Shown: piece by piece, positions 9,152-50,649 of the stretch
Layout of the letters: every line of letters begins with the position of its first letter
Position numbering within the stretch: position 1 is the stretch's first letter
NCBI RefSeq assembly: GCF_900109515.1
Contig: NZ_FOBD01000012.1
Location: 124,001-188,000 of the forward strand
Direction of reading: 5' to 3'
Length of the DNA stretch: 64,000 nucleotides
Source of the DNA: Paenibacillus sp. OK003
GTDB lineage: Bacteria; Bacillota; Bacilli; Paenibacillales; Paenibacillaceae
Notes under the pieces: model-generated
The model's input: the letters and a program-made list of their open reading frames with translations, nothing else
Databases searched by the model: none
What the model was told of the DNA's origin: nothing
Position numbers and translations under genes: made by a program

Positions 9152-10183
9152 TTACAAGATCAAAGCTGTTTTAACCGAATTCATGGGCAATTTCTCTCCG
9201 CTACGCAGATGATACCCGATTGTCCCATTAAATGCCTGTTCATAATCACTCAGCAGCTCCGTCGATGTCACCATTTGCTCCAGTTCGGGAATACTTTGTG
9301 CAAATTTCAATGCTGTACTGATCATGGAGTGATTAGCTACCGCACCAATGATACTAATACCATCATTAATTACGTGTGTGGATTTAAACGTCACTTCATA
9401 GCTGTCGTCATAACCCATAGGAATGATTCTGCCCCCTTTGGCAATCAGCTCAAATCCCACATGAAGCTGGTTTCCGACAGCATCCACCACGATATCAAAT
9501 TTCTTATTGTTATTAATCTCGTATACTTTATCGAGCGTGAGTTCCTGAGGATAGAAAACATGATCAGCTATGCCTACAGCAAATTCTTTGCGGTATGGAT
9601 CTACTTCTGTTCCTACAGTTAGCCTGGCTAGTCGTTTACTTACAAGCTGACATAACGAACCAATGGCACCGGAACCCAGCACAAGGACGGAATCACTTGG
9701 TTTGACTCCTGCTTTCATGAACGTCTGAAGTACACAACCAAGCGGTTCGATCATCATAGCGGTTTCCCAGCTCATGGAATCCGGGATGGCATAGATATAC
9801 TTCTCATCCCCTACGTAATATTCTGCAAATGTACCGTGCGTCGTCATCCCTACTTGATAGTCATCAAAATTCTCGCAATAGATGAAAAGACCTTCACGGC
9901 AATAGGAGCAGGTACCGCAAGATTGCGTGGGATCAACCAATACCCGATCACCTATCTTGAAGCCACGAACCTCGTCGCCCACCTCAACCACTGTACCTAC
10001 ACCTTCATGACCAATAATCGTTCCTTTATTCGCCGGCACTTTGCCTTTGACAATATTCAGGTCTGTACCGCAGATGCCTGAACCATAGATTTTAATTTTT
10101 ACCTGGTTTGGCTTTTGTATGGTTGGCTCCTCAATATCCTGGTAAGTCACCTGTTTAAGATCCTGATATACGAGTGCTTTCAT
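9152..10183 (-). CDS. Zinc-dependent alcohol/polyol dehydrogenase (MDR family)
   Basis: 343 residues. Catalytic-zinc motif GSGICGTDLNIVKG and IIGHEGVGTVVEVGDEV; structural-zinc cysteines in DPTQSCGTCSYCREGLFIYC; Rossmann segment VLVLGSGAIGSLCQLVSKRL. Closest in type to sorbitol, threonine or butanediol dehydrogenases, which oxidise a secondary alcohol with NAD(P). ATG preceded by AGGAGG. Apparent first gene of a four-gene unit with MFS, DUF1349 and HAD genes. Confidence 0.9.
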   Translation of the reverse strand: MKALVYQDLKQVTYQDIEEPTIQKPNQVKIKIYGSGICGTDLNIVKGKVPANKGTIIGHEGVGTVVEVGDEVRGFKIGDRVLVDPTQSCGTCSYCREGLFIYCENFDDYQVGMTTHGTFAEYYVGDEKYIYAIPDSMSWETAMMIEPLGCVLQTFMKAGVKPSDSVLVLGSGAIGSLCQLVSKRLARLTVGTEVDPYRKEFAVGIADHVFYPQELTLDKVYEINNNKKFDIVVDAVGNQLHVGFELIAKGGRIIPMGYDDSYEVTFKSTHVINDGISIIGAVANHSMISTALKFAQSIPELEQMVTSTELLSDYEQAFNGTIGYHLRSGEKLPMNSVKTALIL

Positions 10184-10271
10184 TGAATATTCCTCCTAGT
10201 CAATGTTTTATATAAGTTGAAATAAAGTTTTTACACAATCCACTCCGATCAGAACAACCTTCCAATCGCTG

Positions 10272-10366
10272 TTATCCCCAGATTTTTTAATTCCTTTTTT
10301 TAAAGGGGAAAATCCGGGGATAAAGGCGAGGTGTATGCTTCCGATGTAGCTTTCTTTCAGAAAGCT
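10272..10366. repeat. Intergenic inverted repeats upstream of the alcohol dehydrogenase
   Basis: TTATCCCCAGATTTT (10272-10286) is matched by AAAATCCGGGGATAA (10309-10323), 14 of 15 paired, with a nested CCTTT/AAAGG. A second perfect hairpin, AGCTTTCT-TTC-AGAAAGCT, spans 10348-10366. The first may end the aminotransferase transcript or act as an operator of the dehydrogenase unit. The remainder of 10184-10469 shows no gene. Confidence 0.5.
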
Positions 10367-10469
10367 CTTAGTTCCGCTTTTTCAGGTTTATTCTGTCCTC
10401 TCCGTTCACGTGTAAATGAATAGTTCAACTAATATAATTTGGATGAAATTTTAAACGTTTTCGTAAATC

Positions 10470-11750
10470 TCAATTCGAAAGGTGTTGCTGTTTCAGCATT
10501 TCTTTCCAGTCGGAAAGTGTCTGCAAGAGAGCTTCCTCCACCCACAACAATTCATCCCGGTTATGAGCATCTGAGAAAATAAAGTACCCTTTGGTAAAAA
10601 TTCCGAAGTGGGCCATTCTTTTGACGATAAACTCACGGAACGGATCGGTATGAAAGTTTTCCTCCGAAATAGAGCTAATGGAGAAGCTCGCATAGGTACC
10701 CTTCAACACCAATTGATCGGTTAATCCAAGAAGTACGAATTCGGCTTCAATCAGATCCATCATTCGAATGGTAGCCTCGCGCCAGCTAGGCCATACTTTA
10801 GCGCTTTTCATCAATCGTTCACATGCAATCGCTGCCGCAAGCGCAGTGGTCTCGCTGGAATGCGCATTGCTGAATCTGACCTGTCCTGATAATGACATCA
10901 GATGTTCCGGTCCCATTACGGCTGCGAGTGGCAGTCCATTCGCCATGCCTTTGGAAATACAAAGCAGATCCGGCCAGATGTCATACTCCCCAGCTGTAGC
11001 TTGCTTGCCCATTCGAATGCCGGAGGTGACTTCATCAAATATGACAATGATATCCAATGACCGACATAGGGATACAACTTGCGTCAACGGCTCACGTTTC
11101 CATTCATTTGGACAAAGGACAATGCAGGCGATATCCTCGGGAGAGGATTGGATTTGGGCCTCGATACGCTCTGGTGAGGGCTTATCTATCCAGATTGTTG
11201 TGCGCTCGATATCCACGGGGATGCCTCGCTCTTTCGTTTCACGGCCATAGTATCCATAGGCAGACCAGTCATGCCACCCATGATAGGCCGTTGCGATGAC
11301 CCTGCTTTTGCCACTTCCCGCACGAGCCAGACGTACGGCTCCACTGACGGCATCGGCGCCGCTTTTGGTGAATCGCAATGAAGGGTAGCGGCCTTCAAAC
11401 CGCTCCAAAATCAGTTCAGCGCATTCAAGTTCAATGTCAGCAGGAATAGAATAACTTGTCCCTTTTTTCAGCTGATGGATAACGGTTAGTTGAACTTCGT
11501 GTCGTGCATGCCCCCATGGCGCCGTACCCATGGCCATCTCACAATCCAGCCATTCATTTCCGTCGATATCTATAAAACGGGAATTGCGTGCTTCTGCGCA
11601 GCATACGGGTGTATATCCCGGAAATAATCGCTCTGGTGCTTTGGCTAACGTACTGCATCCGCTCGGAATGACCTTTTCGACATGTTCCAACCACTCCAGA
11701 TTCCGTGTAAACCTTACGGCACGATCCAGCGTGCTCTCTTTTGATTTCAC
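10470..11750 (-). CDS. Class III PLP-dependent aminotransferase (glutamate-1-semialdehyde aminomutase-like)
   Basis: 426 residues, fold type I PLP enzyme. The Schiff-base lysine is K267 in CISKGMANGLPLAAVMG, the cofactor aspartate D239 in IIVIFDEVTSG, and FTKSGADAVSGAVRLARA with TAYHGWHDW are diagnostic. It resembles HemL but lies alone with a glycosyltransferase, as in surface-glycan loci, so transamination of a sugar-linked or small carbonyl substrate is more likely than haem synthesis. Start is GTG with GGAGG 8 bases upstream. It follows the GT2 gene by 33 bases. Confidence 0.88.
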   Translation of the reverse strand: MKSKESTLDRAVRFTRNLEWLEHVEKVIPSGCSTLAKAPERLFPGYTPVCCAEARNSRFIDIDGNEWLDCEMAMGTAPWGHARHEVQLTVIHQLKKGTSYSIPADIELECAELILERFEGRYPSLRFTKSGADAVSGAVRLARAGSGKSRVIATAYHGWHDWSAYGYYGRETKERGIPVDIERTTIWIDKPSPERIEAQIQSSPEDIACIVLCPNEWKREPLTQVVSLCRSLDIIVIFDEVTSGIRMGKQATAGEYDIWPDLLCISKGMANGLPLAAVMGPEHLMSLSGQVRFSNAHSSETTALAAAIACERLMKSAKVWPSWREATIRMMDLIEAEFVLLGLTDQLVLKGTYASFSISSISEENFHTDPFREFIVKRMAHFGIFTKGYFIFSDAHNRDELLWVEEALLQTLSDWKEMLKQQHLSN

Positions 11751-40764: not shown

Positions 40765-42606
40765 TCAAGTAATATTCAAACCACCACTTGCATAGCCAGT
40801 TACGGTATTAATAAGTGTAAGTCCGGCTGCAGTTGCGGAGAACACGAGCAACAACTGTGTCTGTGCAGTAACTGGAATGGCCAAACCGGTAGTTATGCCG
40901 CTGGATATAGTCCCCAGTCCGATAATACCTGTCAATGGAGGTGCTAAGGTTACAACAGCTCCAGGAACTGCCGAGAAAGAATTGTTTGGCGTCGGTGAAC
41001 TGAATAATTGCGCCGTAATGGTTACGGTTGAACCAATTAGGCTCAATGCAACAGTGGTACTGAAATATGCAGAGAGGGAAGTGATAACGCCATCCCTTGG
41101 AGCCGAGAATGCAAAGTTGATAAGAGGTCCCAGGGCCGTTCCGGTTAAATCAATGAGCCCACCCACGACATCAATTCCGGTGGCGGAACTTCCAAAACCA
41201 ATGAGACTTGCCGTTCCTACCAATCCACCCGCAATCGTTGTCAGGATCGCTGGTCCGCCAGAAGCAAACGGAATGATGGCTCCCGAACCTGTTGCTCCCG
41301 TTACACCAGTAACACCAGTGGTGCCTGTTACTCCGGCCAATCCCGTCGCTCCTGTTGCTCCTGTATCACCGGTCGCCCCAGTAACTCCGGCTACTCCTGT
41401 TGCTCCAGTTACACCTGTTACCCCAGTGACCCCGGCTACTCCTGTTGCTCCAGTTACACCTGTTACCCCAGTGACCCCGGCTACTCCTGTTGCTCCAGTT
41501 ACACCTGTTACCCCAGTGACCCCGGCTACTCCTGTTGCTCCAGTTACACCTGTCACCCCAGTGACCCCGGCTACTCCTGTTGCTCCAGTTACACCAGTGA
41601 CGCCAATAGCACCTGCTGCTCCTGTATCACCCGTCGCTCCCGTTACACCAGGATCTCCCGTGGCTCCGGTTACGCCTGGATCGCCTGTCGCTCCCGTTAC
41701 ACCAGGATCTCCCGTGGCTCCGGTTACGCCTGGATCGCCCGTCGCTCCCGTTACACCTGGATCGCCCGTCGCTCCCGTTACACCAGGATCACCCGTGGCT
41801 CCCGTTACGCCTGGATCGCCCGTCGCTCCCGTTACGCCCGGATCACCCGTGGCTCCCGTTACACCTGCCGCTCCAGCAGTTCCTGTCGCTCCTGTAGATC
41901 CTGTCGCTCCTGTCGCCCCACCTGCTGGACCTGCTGCACCCGTGGCTCCGGTTGCACCCGTCGCTCCGTTCAGACCGGCTGCACCTGCTGGCCCCTGAGC
42001 GCCAGCAGCGCCTGGAGTACCCGCTGTACCGGCGGGTCCGACCGGACCAATAGGTCCTGCTGGACCTACTCCACCCTGAGAACCCGCAGCGCCCGCTGGC
42101 CCTTGTGGTCCAGGTACACCCTGAGGACCTGCGGGTCCCGCTGGACCCTGACTGTCTGTATTTCGAAGACCTGTTGTAACGGCAACTTCAGTTGCCCGAA
42201 TCAAAATGACCAGCTGATCTTTCTCAGCGGAAGTGATATTTCCCTGTAAAACGACCGACAGCAGCAAATCAAGCAATTGCTGCAAATTGGTTCCTACAGC
42301 GATCGGAGAAAATGGAACGACCTCTGCAGAAGCAATTGTAAGCTCCAATGCTGCTTCAAGGTCTGCCTTGGTTCCCCGTTTCAAATCCGAATGATGGACC
42401 AGTGCCAGCAATTTACGCAGTATCTCAATCAGAAATGAAATATTGGATGGTGTGGGATTGGCAAAGACCTGTATAATCGCTGTTTTCAACTCACCAATCA
42501 ACTTGAGAAGTAGTTCGGCTTCTTTTTCAAAGCACTTGTGATGTTCTTCTCCTCTACCTTTTTTAAATCCGCTTCCACCAAATCTTATACGTTTCTTTGG
42601 TTTCAT
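40765..42606 (-). CDS. BclB-like collagen-repeat glycoprotein (exosporium/spore surface type)
   Basis: 613 residues in three parts. Residues about 1-155: basic start, then helices ([36 protein letters not shown]). About 156-450: uninterrupted Gly-X-Y collagen triplets, first GPAGPQG-type, then Thr-rich GATGDPGVT (8 copies) and [15 protein letters not shown] (4 nearly identical, plus variants). About 451-613: the globular BclB C-terminal domain ([33 protein letters not shown]). Thr-rich triplets are typical O-glycosylation sites and the end domain trimerises in this family. No signal peptide, as usual for mother-cell-made spore proteins. ATG with GGAGGAG upstream. Confidence 0.93.
41402..41581. 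repeat. Tandem 45-bp repeats in the collagen gene, 4 copies
   Basis: Four adjacent 45-base units (starts 41402, 41447, 41492, 41537), nearly identical, each coding for 15 residues on the minus strand. Further diverged copies flank the block. Unit length is a multiple of 9, so copy change keeps frame and triplet register. Confidence 0.9.
41636..41851. repeat. Tandem 27-bp repeats in the collagen gene, 8 copies
   Basis: Eight 27-base units, each coding for GATGDPGVT on the minus strand, with silent differences (ACC/ACG, GGA/GGG). The silent differences alternate in pairs, as if pairs of units had been duplicated together. Confidence 0.9.
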
Positions 42607-47819: not shown

Positions 47820-48890
47820 TCATATCTTGCTGCGGTTTCCCGCGCCTTGCACAACCACTCTTTTGACCTCTCTCAAATAGGCGTACCCATAATCGTCATC
47901 CGGTTCAAGGTACGCTCCTTCCGCCCACTCATTCCATGCGTTAACGAACAGGAAGCCACTGCCGTTCAATTCCTGAGCTTTCTCCATCTGTCGCGATAGA
48001 TACAAGCCGAATTTTTCAGGTGTTGCGCCTACAGTACTCTGTCCTTCAACCGACCGACGCGGTGTATTGTCCCAATTCACAAATGCACCAGGATATACGA
48101 CTTCCCCGTTTCGGTGAGGTGTTCTTTCGAGAATGGATGACCATACTTTATCGTAGTCGACCACAATGTGCTTCTTCCCCTTGATGTCCAGTTCAATCCA
48201 GATTCCATTCATATGACCATGTGCAAACGTATAGTGGGGCTCAAATTCCATGCTTGCGTCAAAGGCAGGTCGATTAAAGGTAGGAAATCCACCGATCGTC
48301 TGCACAAAATGAATACCCTCCAGCCCGTGTTCTATCGCAAGCCTACGCCAATAATGAATCATTTCCTGACATCGAGGTATGCTTGCAGGACGATAAATCA
48401 GAAATAGCGGTTTTCCCTCTACACGAATGTATCGTTTGTCCTTAAACGCTCTGATCAGATAATCGAAATGTTGTTTCCAGTCACTCTCTTCTCCGTAGTC
48501 CTGCGAAATAAGAATATCCGATTCGCGTCCATCCCATTTGCGTGTCCACGTTTCATTGGCCCATGATAAACAAAAAGGGAAATCCGGTTCCCCACTATCC
48601 AAAATTTCATCAAACGGCTTTTCAAGCAATCGTTTTCCTTTAAACCAGTAGTGATAATAACAGAATCCGTATATTCCGTAATTTTTGGCCGTGTCAGCCT
48701 GCCATTTGCGTACCTTGGGGTCCGTTAAATCATAGTAGTTCTGATGCAATGGCTTTTTGGGTTGCAGATGGCCTGGATAAAGGGGAATTGTTTTTTTTAC
48801 ATTGGTCCATTCTGTAAAGCCATCCCCCCACCACTTGTCATTCTCCGCAATTCGATGAAATTGAGGTAAGTGTAATGCAATAAGCTTCAA
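47820..48890 (-). CDS. WbsX-like glycosyltransferase/GH99-like protein
   Basis: About 356 residues, cytoplasmic. The WbsX family opens LIALHLPQFHRIAENDKWWG with GFTEWTNVKK, then HYYDLTDP-type and NYGIYGFCYYHYWFKGKRLL, LSWANETWTRKWDG and the C-terminal LFVNAWNEWAEGAYLEPDDD, all conserved in this GH99-like barrel. WbsX occurs in O-antigen and rhamnan loci and is thought to act on glycans; the exact reaction is unsettled. TTG 48890 with GGAGGA 7 bases upstream is chosen. It follows the CgeB-like gene by 28 bases. Confidence 0.9.
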   Translation of the reverse strand: MKLIALHLPQFHRIAENDKWWGDGFTEWTNVKKTIPLYPGHLQPKKPLHQNYYDLTDPKVRKWQADTAKNYGIYGFCYYHYWFKGKRLLEKPFDEILDSGEPDFPFCLSWANETWTRKWDGRESDILISQDYGEESDWKQHFDYLIRAFKDKRYIRVEGKPLFLIYRPASIPRCQEMIHYWRRLAIEHGLEGIHFVQTIGGFPTFNRPAFDASMEFEPHYTFAHGHMNGIWIELDIKGKKHIVVDYDKVWSSILERTPHRNGEVVYPGAFVNWDNTPRRSVEGQSTVGATPEKFGLYLSRQMEKAQELNGSGFLFVNAWNEWAEGAYLEPDDDYGYAYLREVKRVVVQGAGNRSKI

Positions 48891-48918
48891 GCAGGACTCC
48901 TCCAATTAACAGACATAT

Positions 48919-50052
48919 TCATTGGAAAATAATATCCATAAGTTGCAAACTTTTATGAAGATAGGATTGATTGTACTTCATATAAGAAAGTGCCCGGGAG
49001 GCAGCCAGTCTTCGTTGATCCACATGGTCCCAATAATGTCCAAGCTTCTGTACGAGTTCTTCAAATGTTGCATAGCGTTGGAAGTCATCCGTGTTCAAGG
49101 GCCCGCTTGAAGAAGCCGAAATAAGTTGAAATGTGCCGCACGCAGCTACTTCCATGATACGTCTAACGGAAAATTTTTCCTGAACAACAAGTTTGGTGCC
49201 GTTGTATAACTTTTCCCGAATCTCATGAGGTTTCACGGGCACAAATGCACCGAATCTCTCCCACCCCTGTCCTTCAACTCGCACTCTTTTATCCGATAAC
49301 GACGCATGAGTTGCAAGAGCATACAGGCAGCTGCCAGGGTGTGCATCCCCAATGATATAAACATCGGATTCATATTCTCTTCCCACCACCTGTGGACAGA
49401 ACACTGTGGGATTCGGTGGAAAAGGTATTGCATGACATGAGACATTCACCATATGCTGATCGGAGGGAATCTGGGTCGAATGCTGTGTAAATACATAATC
49501 AAAAAAAGGGATGATTGATTCCAACTGTTTTACATCCGACTGGTCCGACAACCAAATCGCCTTTTTGGCAGAGGATGTCCTCAACGCTTCCATATTCTGA
49601 TTTGACAGAGCATCTTCTCCATCCAGTACCAGAATCAAATCCAAATCCTGCCCTGCCGTATGATCTGCCAACGACTGAATCGTTTTGATTTCATTAACAT
49701 GTTGAACCAAATGCCTCAAGCTCTGTTCAATCATAATAGATTTCGCAGAGCCTTTTCGTTCTATTGCAGGAGTAATCAGGAGGACCTTCAGCTGTTTATA
49801 ATGAACACGGGGAGAATCCGAAATGTTCCCATTGTCTTTACTATCCATGGACTGTTCCTTACCGTCCTGAATCATTTTCATAAGATGCTGCTGCAGATCC
49901 GATTGCTGTACCACCAGATGATGCCGGATTGATTTAAGTTTTCGGTTCAATCTTGCGTTCATTTGTCTGAGGTATAGTTGATTGGGATGCTGGACAGGAC
50001 GCCGATTCTTTTGGGATTTGGCTAGCATACGCCTCCTTTTTTTGATGACCAT
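48919..50052 (-). CDS. CgeB-like glycosyltransferase family protein
   Basis: About 377 residues. A very basic N-terminus (about 1-45) with helices, then VLLITPAIERKGSAKSIMIE and FDYVFTQHS, and the C-terminal half typical of CgeB/GT1-like proteins: VYIIGDAHPG, KPHEIREKLYNGTKLVVQEK, IMEVAACGTFQLISASSSGP and YATFEELVQKLGHYW. CgeB acts in spore-crust maturation in B. subtilis. Start uncertain (ATG 50052, TTG 50061 or ATG 50028; ribosome sites are close to all). Probably co-transcribed with the WbsX gene; divergent from the small repeat protein. Confidence 0.85.
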   Translation of the reverse strand: MVIKKRRRMLAKSQKNRRPVQHPNQLYLRQMNARLNRKLKSIRHHLVVQQSDLQQHLMKMIQDGKEQSMDSKDNGNISDSPRVHYKQLKVLLITPAIERKGSAKSIMIEQSLRHLVQHVNEIKTIQSLADHTAGQDLDLILVLDGEDALSNQNMEALRTSSAKKAIWLSDQSDVKQLESIIPFFDYVFTQHSTQIPSDQHMVNVSCHAIPFPPNPTVFCPQVVGREYESDVYIIGDAHPGSCLYALATHASLSDKRVRVEGQGWERFGAFVPVKPHEIREKLYNGTKLVVQEKFSVRRIMEVAACGTFQLISASSSGPLNTDDFQRYATFEELVQKLGHYWDHVDQRRLAASRALSYMKYNQSYLHKSLQLMDIIFQ

Positions 50053-50250
50053 ACCCTCCAATCACGAAGCGGATTAACTCTCATTGCCTACAATATGCAT
50101 TTGTCTTTGGCTAGGTTTCTATCGCCTCATTTTTAGGTGTTTAACTATTCAAAGATGGGCTTCACCCGTGTCTTTAAATGTGCCACAACCCCGTGTCCAT
50201 CCGGTTCTTGTCCTCATAAAATATATCAAACCAGATAGGAGTTGATATGA

Positions 50251-50649
50251 TTGCCAACATTCGATAGCATTCTTGTCACGGGAAATCAAACTATTAATCA
50301 GGATTTGCAGGTAAACGGTAATGTAACCATTGGCCTGGATCTGCAGGTGAATGGAGAACAGACGGTTGCTGGCAGCTTGCAGATTAACGACAGCTCCTCC
50401 ATTACAAATAATCTGGGTGTCGGCGGGGTTATCGAGGCAGGAGACAGTGTAAAAGCAACAACACAGCTCATGGCCATGAATCAGCCGACTCTTCCAGTTG
50501 CCTTGCCACTCATCCAGCAACTGTTATATTATAATCCCGGTGTACTCAATCAGCCGGGTCTAGTGTTAATAGGCACTAGCGGGAATAAGTATGTTCTGTT
50601 TATTGATGAGAGCGGAGGAACACCAAATCTAGCGATTCAACGCGTGTAG
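50251..50649 (+). CDS. Small repeat-rich protein, possibly surface or spore exposed; function unknown
   Basis: 132 residues. Start is TTG 50251 with TAGGAG 9 bases upstream; the ATG at 50247 is in another frame and stops after six codons. Residues about 12-62 have an alternating V/G/N/D pattern in short repeats (QDLQVNGNVTIGLDLQVNGE, then AGSLQINDSSSITNNLGVGG), as in beta-helical shafts of tail-fibre or spore-surface proteins. The C-terminal half (PLIQQLLYYNPGVL; KYVLFIDESGG) looks globular. No signal peptide. CATAAAATA at 50215-50223 matches the SigK -10 pattern CATAnnnTA, but no matching -35 was found. Confidence 0.7.
   Translation: MPTFDSILVTGNQTINQDLQVNGNVTIGLDLQVNGEQTVAGSLQINDSSSITNNLGVGGVIEAGDSVKATTQLMAMNQPTLPVALPLIQQLLYYNPGVLNQPGLVLIGTSGNKYVLFIDESGGTPNLAIQRV

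Follow-up and report, generated by a model that had tools for sequence, protein, structure and literature searches.

Three genes at positions 47820 to 50649 of the window, the 64,000-nucleotide stretch of Paenibacillus sp. OK003 DNA analysed here as a whole, encode a small repeat protein and, on the opposite strand, two putative sugar enzymes, a CgeB-like glycosyltransferase (GT) and a member of the WbsX family. An earlier note, made from the letters of this DNA, had placed the three genes and a SigK-like -10 box here and had suggested that they form one small system that makes and sugar-coats a spore-surface protein. The positions of the open reading frames (ORFs) and the sequence bear out this placing, and the proposed membership of the three genes in one system now has strong support from the co-occurrence of the small gene with WbsX in 65 of 65 family genomes, from their close linkage in 63 of these and from the survival of that linkage through changes of gene order. 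The 6.7-Mb host genome (G000) holds one match to PF14307, the WbsX profile, and one copy of the small gene. The features of the locus are as follows.

47820-48905 (-): WbsX gene, an ORF of 361 amino acids (aa); PF14307; predicted GH99-like fold
47919-47930 (-): predicted catalytic pair E326 and E329 of WbsX within NAWNEWAEG, aligned to NEWHEG of GH99
48919-50061 (-): CgeB-like GT gene, an ORF of 380 aa; PF13524
50089-50097 (-): SigK-type -10 box CATATTGTA of the GT-WbsX pair, with ACC-N16 directly upstream
50215-50223 (+): SigK-type -10 box CATAAAATA of the small gene, 36 nt upstream of its TTG start codon
50251-50649 (+): small repeat protein gene, an ORF of 132 aa with a TTG start; 12-residue repeats, then a C-terminal beta domain
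50251-50466 (+): stalk part of the small protein, approximately residues 1-72, with a period of 12
50512-50646 (+): conserved C-terminal domain of the small protein, approximately residues 88-132, with a QPGLVL.GT.G..Y.LF.D motif and four predicted strands

The divergent spacer between GT and the small gene measures 189 bp. On the other side, GT and WbsX are probably transcribed as one operon, because only 13 nt separate the GT stop from the WbsX start.

Linkage and rearrangement of the three genes

Among 59 relatives, the window's own genome included, the small protein was matched in 19 and is near-full-length in 18, and both enzymes adjoin the small gene in all 18, two of which (G047 and G055) are assigned to another family of the same order. 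The closest named record comes from Paenibacillus taichungensis (94-95% identity, in a search that may omit the window's own species), and a profile of the small protein found 38 named loci, all from Paenibacillus or Cohnella. Both enzymes are present at 35 of these loci, four of which have a broken or partial enzyme copy (L094, L103, L113 and L125). Across 394 genomes of the family, the small protein was found in 65, a close WbsX in 73 and both together in 65, and in 63 of the last the two genes lie within 5 kb of each other, while in the other two (G199 and G246) a GT-WbsX pair is present elsewhere in the genome. These counts start from 84 genomes that matched the small-protein profile, from which six with fragments only (G001, G159, G171, G222, G225 and G269), two with long fibres (G375 and G376) and 11 with weak matches inside other long ORFs were dropped, and from 93 genomes that matched the WbsX profile, from which 20 with distant matches only were dropped. 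The Fisher p-values for co-occurrence, as well as those for the promoter tests below, treat related genomes as independent and thus overstate significance. In a class-wide sample of 398 genomes the small-family profile matched 18, of which 16 belong to the window's family and the other two are weak repeat matches inside other ORFs. The earlier note had proposed to look for conservation of the three-gene block across spore formers, and had taken a small protein never linked to glycosyltransferases as evidence against its view; within the family the block is conserved, and the opposite of such an unlinked small protein was found. In P. cellulositrophicus the small gene is located on an 897-kb plasmid (L111, NZ_CP045296.1 16692-17108), and in G199, where it has the same coordinates, GT and WbsX are found on another contig (L170).

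The order of the genes is variable. When layouts in the family genomes were called by the distance between the small gene and WbsX, and not by strand, 32 genomes show the spacing of the window (600-5000 nt; in the window GT stands between) and 31 a tail-to-tail layout, in which the small gene lies behind WbsX at less than 600 nt. Called by strand, the named loci comprise 15 head-to-head and 20 tail-to-tail arrangements, and at all 35 the small gene is on the strand opposite to GT and WbsX. On a WbsX tree of 33 of the 36 rows, from which the broken copies at L103, L113 and L125 were left out, the layout needs at least two switches, which are forced by well-supported branches; L110, for instance, is tail-to-tail inside a head-to-head group. 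Linkage therefore outlives re-ordering, which argues for a shared function. Moreover, the genes flanking the module differ between groups, and no ORF cluster beyond the three module genes is common to all 16 module-bearing neighbourhoods compared, so that additional polymer genes do not appear to travel with it. Loss has also left traces, since in G001, G159 and G171 the flanking genes lie near each other and the small gene is reduced to its 3' end, which is consistent with a single deletion that removed both enzyme genes and the greater part of the small gene. The break points are identical in G001 and G159, and these two genomes may share one deletion event.

The small protein and its candidate enzymes

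The small protein is built from 12-residue repeats with the consensus V-N-G-[NS]-x-T-[IV]-x-x-x-L-Q, and the repeats that the earlier note had seen by inspection are real: the mean self-identity of the repeat part over 36 members is highest at offsets 12 (0.36) and 24 (0.34), and the remaining offsets between 4 and 30 give 0.04-0.17, with smaller peaks at 6, 18 and 30. In 25 of the 36 members the QPGL-type motif follows the start at a distance of 88, 100, 112 or 124 residues, a distance that changes in steps of one repeat. The other 11 members do not fit these steps; for one of them, L115, the reason is a row that starts inside the gene. The best-conserved parts are the N-terminus (M-P-T-F-D) and the C-terminal domain. 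The 36 sequences contain a single cysteine in all, and Lys and Arg together average 2%; no signal peptide was seen by eye (no predictor was run), and no Pfam family matched above its cut-off. Sequons of the N-x-S/T type are twice as frequent as in shuffled sequences (131 versus 62), an excess that was not used as evidence of N-glycosylation because it could stem from the G-[NS]-x-T motif of the repeats. In the AlphaFold monomer (pTM 0.46), residues 1-50 have an average pLDDT of 91-96 and form no intrachain strands, residues 76-87 are poorly modelled, and strands appear in the C-terminal 40 residues. A confident chain without strands is what a trimer that pairs only with its partners would look like, and the model thus leads us to infer that the stalk may be trimeric. 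Kinship with the hexapeptide repeats of LpxD was considered and rejected, given that the NCBIfam match (E 2.2e-5) reaches only 23.8 bits against a cut-off of 207 and the solved structures match at E 0.02; these matches are read as a resemblance of repeats.

Long 'ATFDN' repeat fibres (approximately 570-640 aa) resemble the small protein in their N- and C-terminal motifs and in their repeat stalk. They were found at L173 (4523-6439, in genome G375), L174 (4478-6190) and L127 (4407-6134), of which the last two apparently represent one contig and the first contains a masked N run. Neither of the two genomes counted for these fibres, G375 and G376, has a close WbsX, in which they differ from the module, and by eye the ORFs near the fibres look SpsF/NeuB-like.

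WbsX matches PF14307 over profile positions 1-349 of 350 (E 4.6e-134, 447.7 bits). Its structural model is moderate (mean pLDDT 70.8, pTM 0.79); nevertheless, the first 33 ranks of a Foldseek search are all bacterial GH99 enzymes or human MANEA, the best at E 1.8e-10 with a probability of 1.00, and with TM scores of 0.53-0.60 by query length. Sequence identity to GH99 in these best 33 fold alignments is only 11-16%, so that WbsX would share with the GH99 endo-alpha-mannosidases a fold and an NEWxEG pair at a very great sequence distance. A weak profile match (E 0.006) aligns NAWNEWAEG of WbsX with NEWHEG of GH99, and the two glutamates, E326 and E329, do not vary in either of two alignments, one of 16 and one of 21 sequences; the mutated glutamates named in the PDB titles of GH99 structures, E333 and E336, have the same three-residue spacing. 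Similarly, nine of the ten matches listed among plasmid-borne WbsX relatives are annotated as 'glycoside hydrolase family 99-like domain-containing protein'. In view of the fold, the glutamates and this annotation, 'glycosyltransferase WbsX' is a name from which no activity should be read, and the model suggests that WbsX may trim or transglycosylate a glycan instead of transferring from a nucleotide sugar. GT matches PF13524 (Glyco_trans_1_2), which we take to be the C-terminal domain of CgeB, at E 1.6e-7. With 31.8 bits against a cut-off of 25 this match makes 'CgeB' a family-level label; a search for a solved relative of GT found none. The 'WbsX/CgeB glycosyltransferases' of the earlier note thus fare unevenly: both families were matched, the first strongly and the second at family level, while a GH99-like WbsX with both catalytic glutamates may depart from the description as a glycosyltransferase.

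Promoter signals upstream of both units

The box CATANNNTA occurs 25 times on both strands of the 64-kb window, and two of these occurrences lie in the 189-bp spacer (50215 on the plus and 50097 on the minus strand). Given that it is also conserved in relatives, the box looks like more than chance. In 29 of 39 loci it precedes the start of the small gene by 33-41 nt, and in 34 of 37 the SigK-type form CATANNNT[AG] does so by 33-42 nt, a near-constant distance of the kind tested for members of the SigK regulon. Only L100, L124 and L125 have no such box; L115 and L127 were left out of the count since their locus coordinate is not the start codon, and the small gene of L115 has the box CATATACTG. 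The box is kept even in relatives with approximately 45% protein identity.

In a window test around the stop-to-stop start, CATANNNTA was found near the start of 24 of 38 GT ORFs (fragments of broken copies included; 2.4 in shuffles), 23 of 40 small genes (3.3 in shuffles) in this rougher setting, and 2 of 37 WbsX ORFs (1.6 in shuffles), compared with 20 of 223 other genes of at least 200 aa. This test replaced one based on ribosome sites, in which the small gene had the box in 18 of 29 cases, because the latter missed most GT starts, and the choice was made after the first result had been seen. For the -35 element, GT boxes were sought in 31 of 36 loci (without L094, L096, L104, L112 and L115), and some of the 32 boxes lie outside a likely promoter position; an earlier look had found no GT box at L096, L104 and L112. 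The GT box of the window reads ACC-N16-CATATTGTA. As a comparison, yabG encodes a sporulation protease and is SigK-dependent in B. subtilis; among 27 yabG loci a script found the strict box in 11, inspection by eye added 15 with G as the last base, and ACC often stands approximately 16 nt upstream. Taken together, the SigK-type -10 boxes before both units and the comparison with yabG suggest late mother-cell expression.

A palindrome, TTTTGCTATATAGCAAAA, lies approximately 13-30 nt upstream of the small-gene -10 box; it is perfect in L119, L122 and L123, imperfect in L116, L117 and L120, and perhaps represents a regulator site.

A candidate spore-surface module and its alternatives

We regard it as probable, though well short of settled, that the three genes act in the mother cell as a module for making and glycosylating a fibre of the spore surface. 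Late in sporulation, RNA polymerase with a SigK-type factor would transcribe the small fibre gene as one unit and the GT-WbsX operon as another, and the small protein, for which a signal peptide is not evident, would be made in the mother-cell cytosol. It would probably form a trimeric stalk topped by the C-terminal domain, the length of the stalk being set by the number of 12-residue repeats. The CgeB-like enzyme may add sugar to the small protein or to a glycan carried on it, the GH99-like WbsX may extend, trim or transglycosylate that glycan, and the product would be deposited on the forespore as a glycosylated fibre of the surface or a component of the crust. Both roles of the small protein, as the spore-surface filament and as the target of glycosylation, are a proposal. 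A broader reading, which we hold only tentatively, is that Paenibacillus and Cohnella possess a distinct class of glycosylated spore-surface fibre with 12-residue-repeat subunits, decorated in the mother-cell cytosol by a dedicated enzyme pair whose GH99-fold member would act as a transglycosidase or in a glycan-processing step on protein-bound glycan. To our knowledge, the spore surface has been described less fully in Paenibacillus than in B. subtilis or the B. cereus group, and the module offers a concrete, testable candidate for the way in which Paenibacillus spores may acquire a surface coated with sugar. In addition, the WbsX family is here connected with one particular small protein, which could carry its substrate. 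The earlier note did not recognise the combination as described, and the literature searched, which was one paper collection, likewise held no description of the three-gene module.

Several known systems resemble the module in part. In outline it may work like CgeA/CgeB, the crust pair of B. subtilis, which also joins a small surface protein to a CgeB-type glycosyltransferase; the module GT carries the PF13524 domain, the likeness is one of arrangement, and homology is not claimed. Late mother-cell control governs cgeAB in B. subtilis and is only suggested for the module. CgeA and CgeB are encoded by a co-directional operon, whereas the small gene of the module stands on the opposite strand at 35 named loci, and the 12-residue-repeat fibre, its separate transcription unit and the additional GH99-like enzyme are further differences. 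Excerpts of one paper describe CgeA as a possible glycosylation target or hub (PMC10502511), which gives the working principle of the module a precedent, and according to excerpts of another, cgeAB has been reported from no bacteria outside the B. subtilis group (PMC3533761). The collagen-like BclA/BclB glycoproteins of the B. cereus group exosporium are fibrous surface proteins, as is proposed for the small protein, and have a SigK-type promoter, which has a CATA -10 in BclA-type genes according to excerpts of PMC4750369. BclA is a trimeric glycoprotein, and for the small protein both the trimer and the glycan are conjectured; its C-terminal domain differs, its sugar enzymes are directly linked, and it does not belong to this type, having 12-residue repeats and no Gly-X-Y run. 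The proteins of F-ENA endospore appendages (DUF4183) are small as well (136 aa in a Paenibacillaceae example) and occur in Paenibacillus and Cohnella, as stated in excerpts of PMC11952670. The module shares this size and range, and differs in its repeat stalk; the small protein gave no DUF4183 match up to E 1 and was not assigned to this class. With respect to the WbsX family and GH99 in general, the module differs in that its WbsX is tied to one protein gene.

Several observations weigh against the proposed module. Three of the 38 named loci (L111, L114 and L127) have a small-family gene without enzymes nearby, and eight genomes contain a WbsX of this clade without the small gene; in two of them (G112 and G309) GT still adjoins WbsX, and in six (G063, G086, G126, G258, G282 and G290) no GT of this type is labelled beside it. 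A near-full-length small gene is missing from 329 of the 394 family genomes, so that it is not generally needed for spores. Searches of PDB and viral folds with the small protein gave no match at E 0.001. As regards the promoters, genes of at least 200 aa other than the module's also carry CATANNNTA more often than shuffles do (20 of 223 versus 11.5), and the ribosome-site-based first test gave 4 of 36 for GT against 7 of 209 for others (p 0.06, with kinship ignored). Furthermore, the SigK-like box that the earlier note had singled out is conserved before the small gene and enriched before GT, while the -35 element is weak, with AC at a spacing of 15-17 for 8 of the 36 boxes of the small gene and for 16 of the 32 found for GT.

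The same genes could instead serve a separate spore-surface polysaccharide that the enzymes build or trim, the small fibre being only an unglycosylated anchor or scaffold. We consider this rather unlikely, even though the role of a hub proposed for CgeA (PMC10502511, in excerpts) would suit it, a GH99 fold is apt for work on a longer glycan, and in G199 and G246 the parts are located apart from each other. The linkage of two enzymes with one protein gene in 63 of 65 genomes is what would be expected of a dedicated acceptor, and the 16 neighbourhoods share nothing beyond the three module genes. Transcription of the same module by SigE would leave the rest of the proposal in place, and it is somewhat less plausible again; the -10 boxes of both sigma factors begin with CATA, and some of the boxes read CATACAATA or CATAGAATA, but ACC-N16 precedes the GT box of the window as it does at several loci of the SigK-dependent yabG.

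A role at the vegetative cell surface or in biofilms, unrelated to spores, appears improbable. WbsX relatives do occur on plasmids of, for example, Lactococcus, which does not sporulate, and WbsX appears as a gene name in papers on O-antigen clusters and the like, judging from their titles. Against such a role stand the small protein's lack of a signal peptide by eye, the conserved CATANNNT[AG] before its gene together with the enrichment of the box before GT, and the restriction of all 38 named loci to Paenibacillus or Cohnella. Finally, phage fibres use similar repeats and a weak PHROG tail-fibre match was found (E 0.001), which could mean that a phage tail fibre, left over or domesticated, gave rise to the small protein and that its linkage is accidental. 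This origin is close to refuted and was rejected on searches with the small protein itself and on its co-occurrence with WbsX, since among 50,697 phage records there was one weak partial match, the search of viral folds gave nothing at E 0.001, and all 65 family genomes with the small gene have a close WbsX.

Approximately 5 kb from the module, a gene at 40765-42606 on the minus strand of the window encodes a collagen-like protein of 613 aa whose C-terminal domain is of the BclB type (TIGR03721, E 1.7e-61), and CATANNNTA is absent from the 160 bp upstream of it. Elsewhere, ORFs that look collagen-like by eye are found a few kb or less from WbsX relatives, namely at L163 (G258; 93-320, antisense) and at L164 (G126; 9492-10922), where the ORF matches models of collagen-like adhesins, all below their cut-offs. 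These cases hint that collagen-like fibres and this clade of WbsX are more widely connected.

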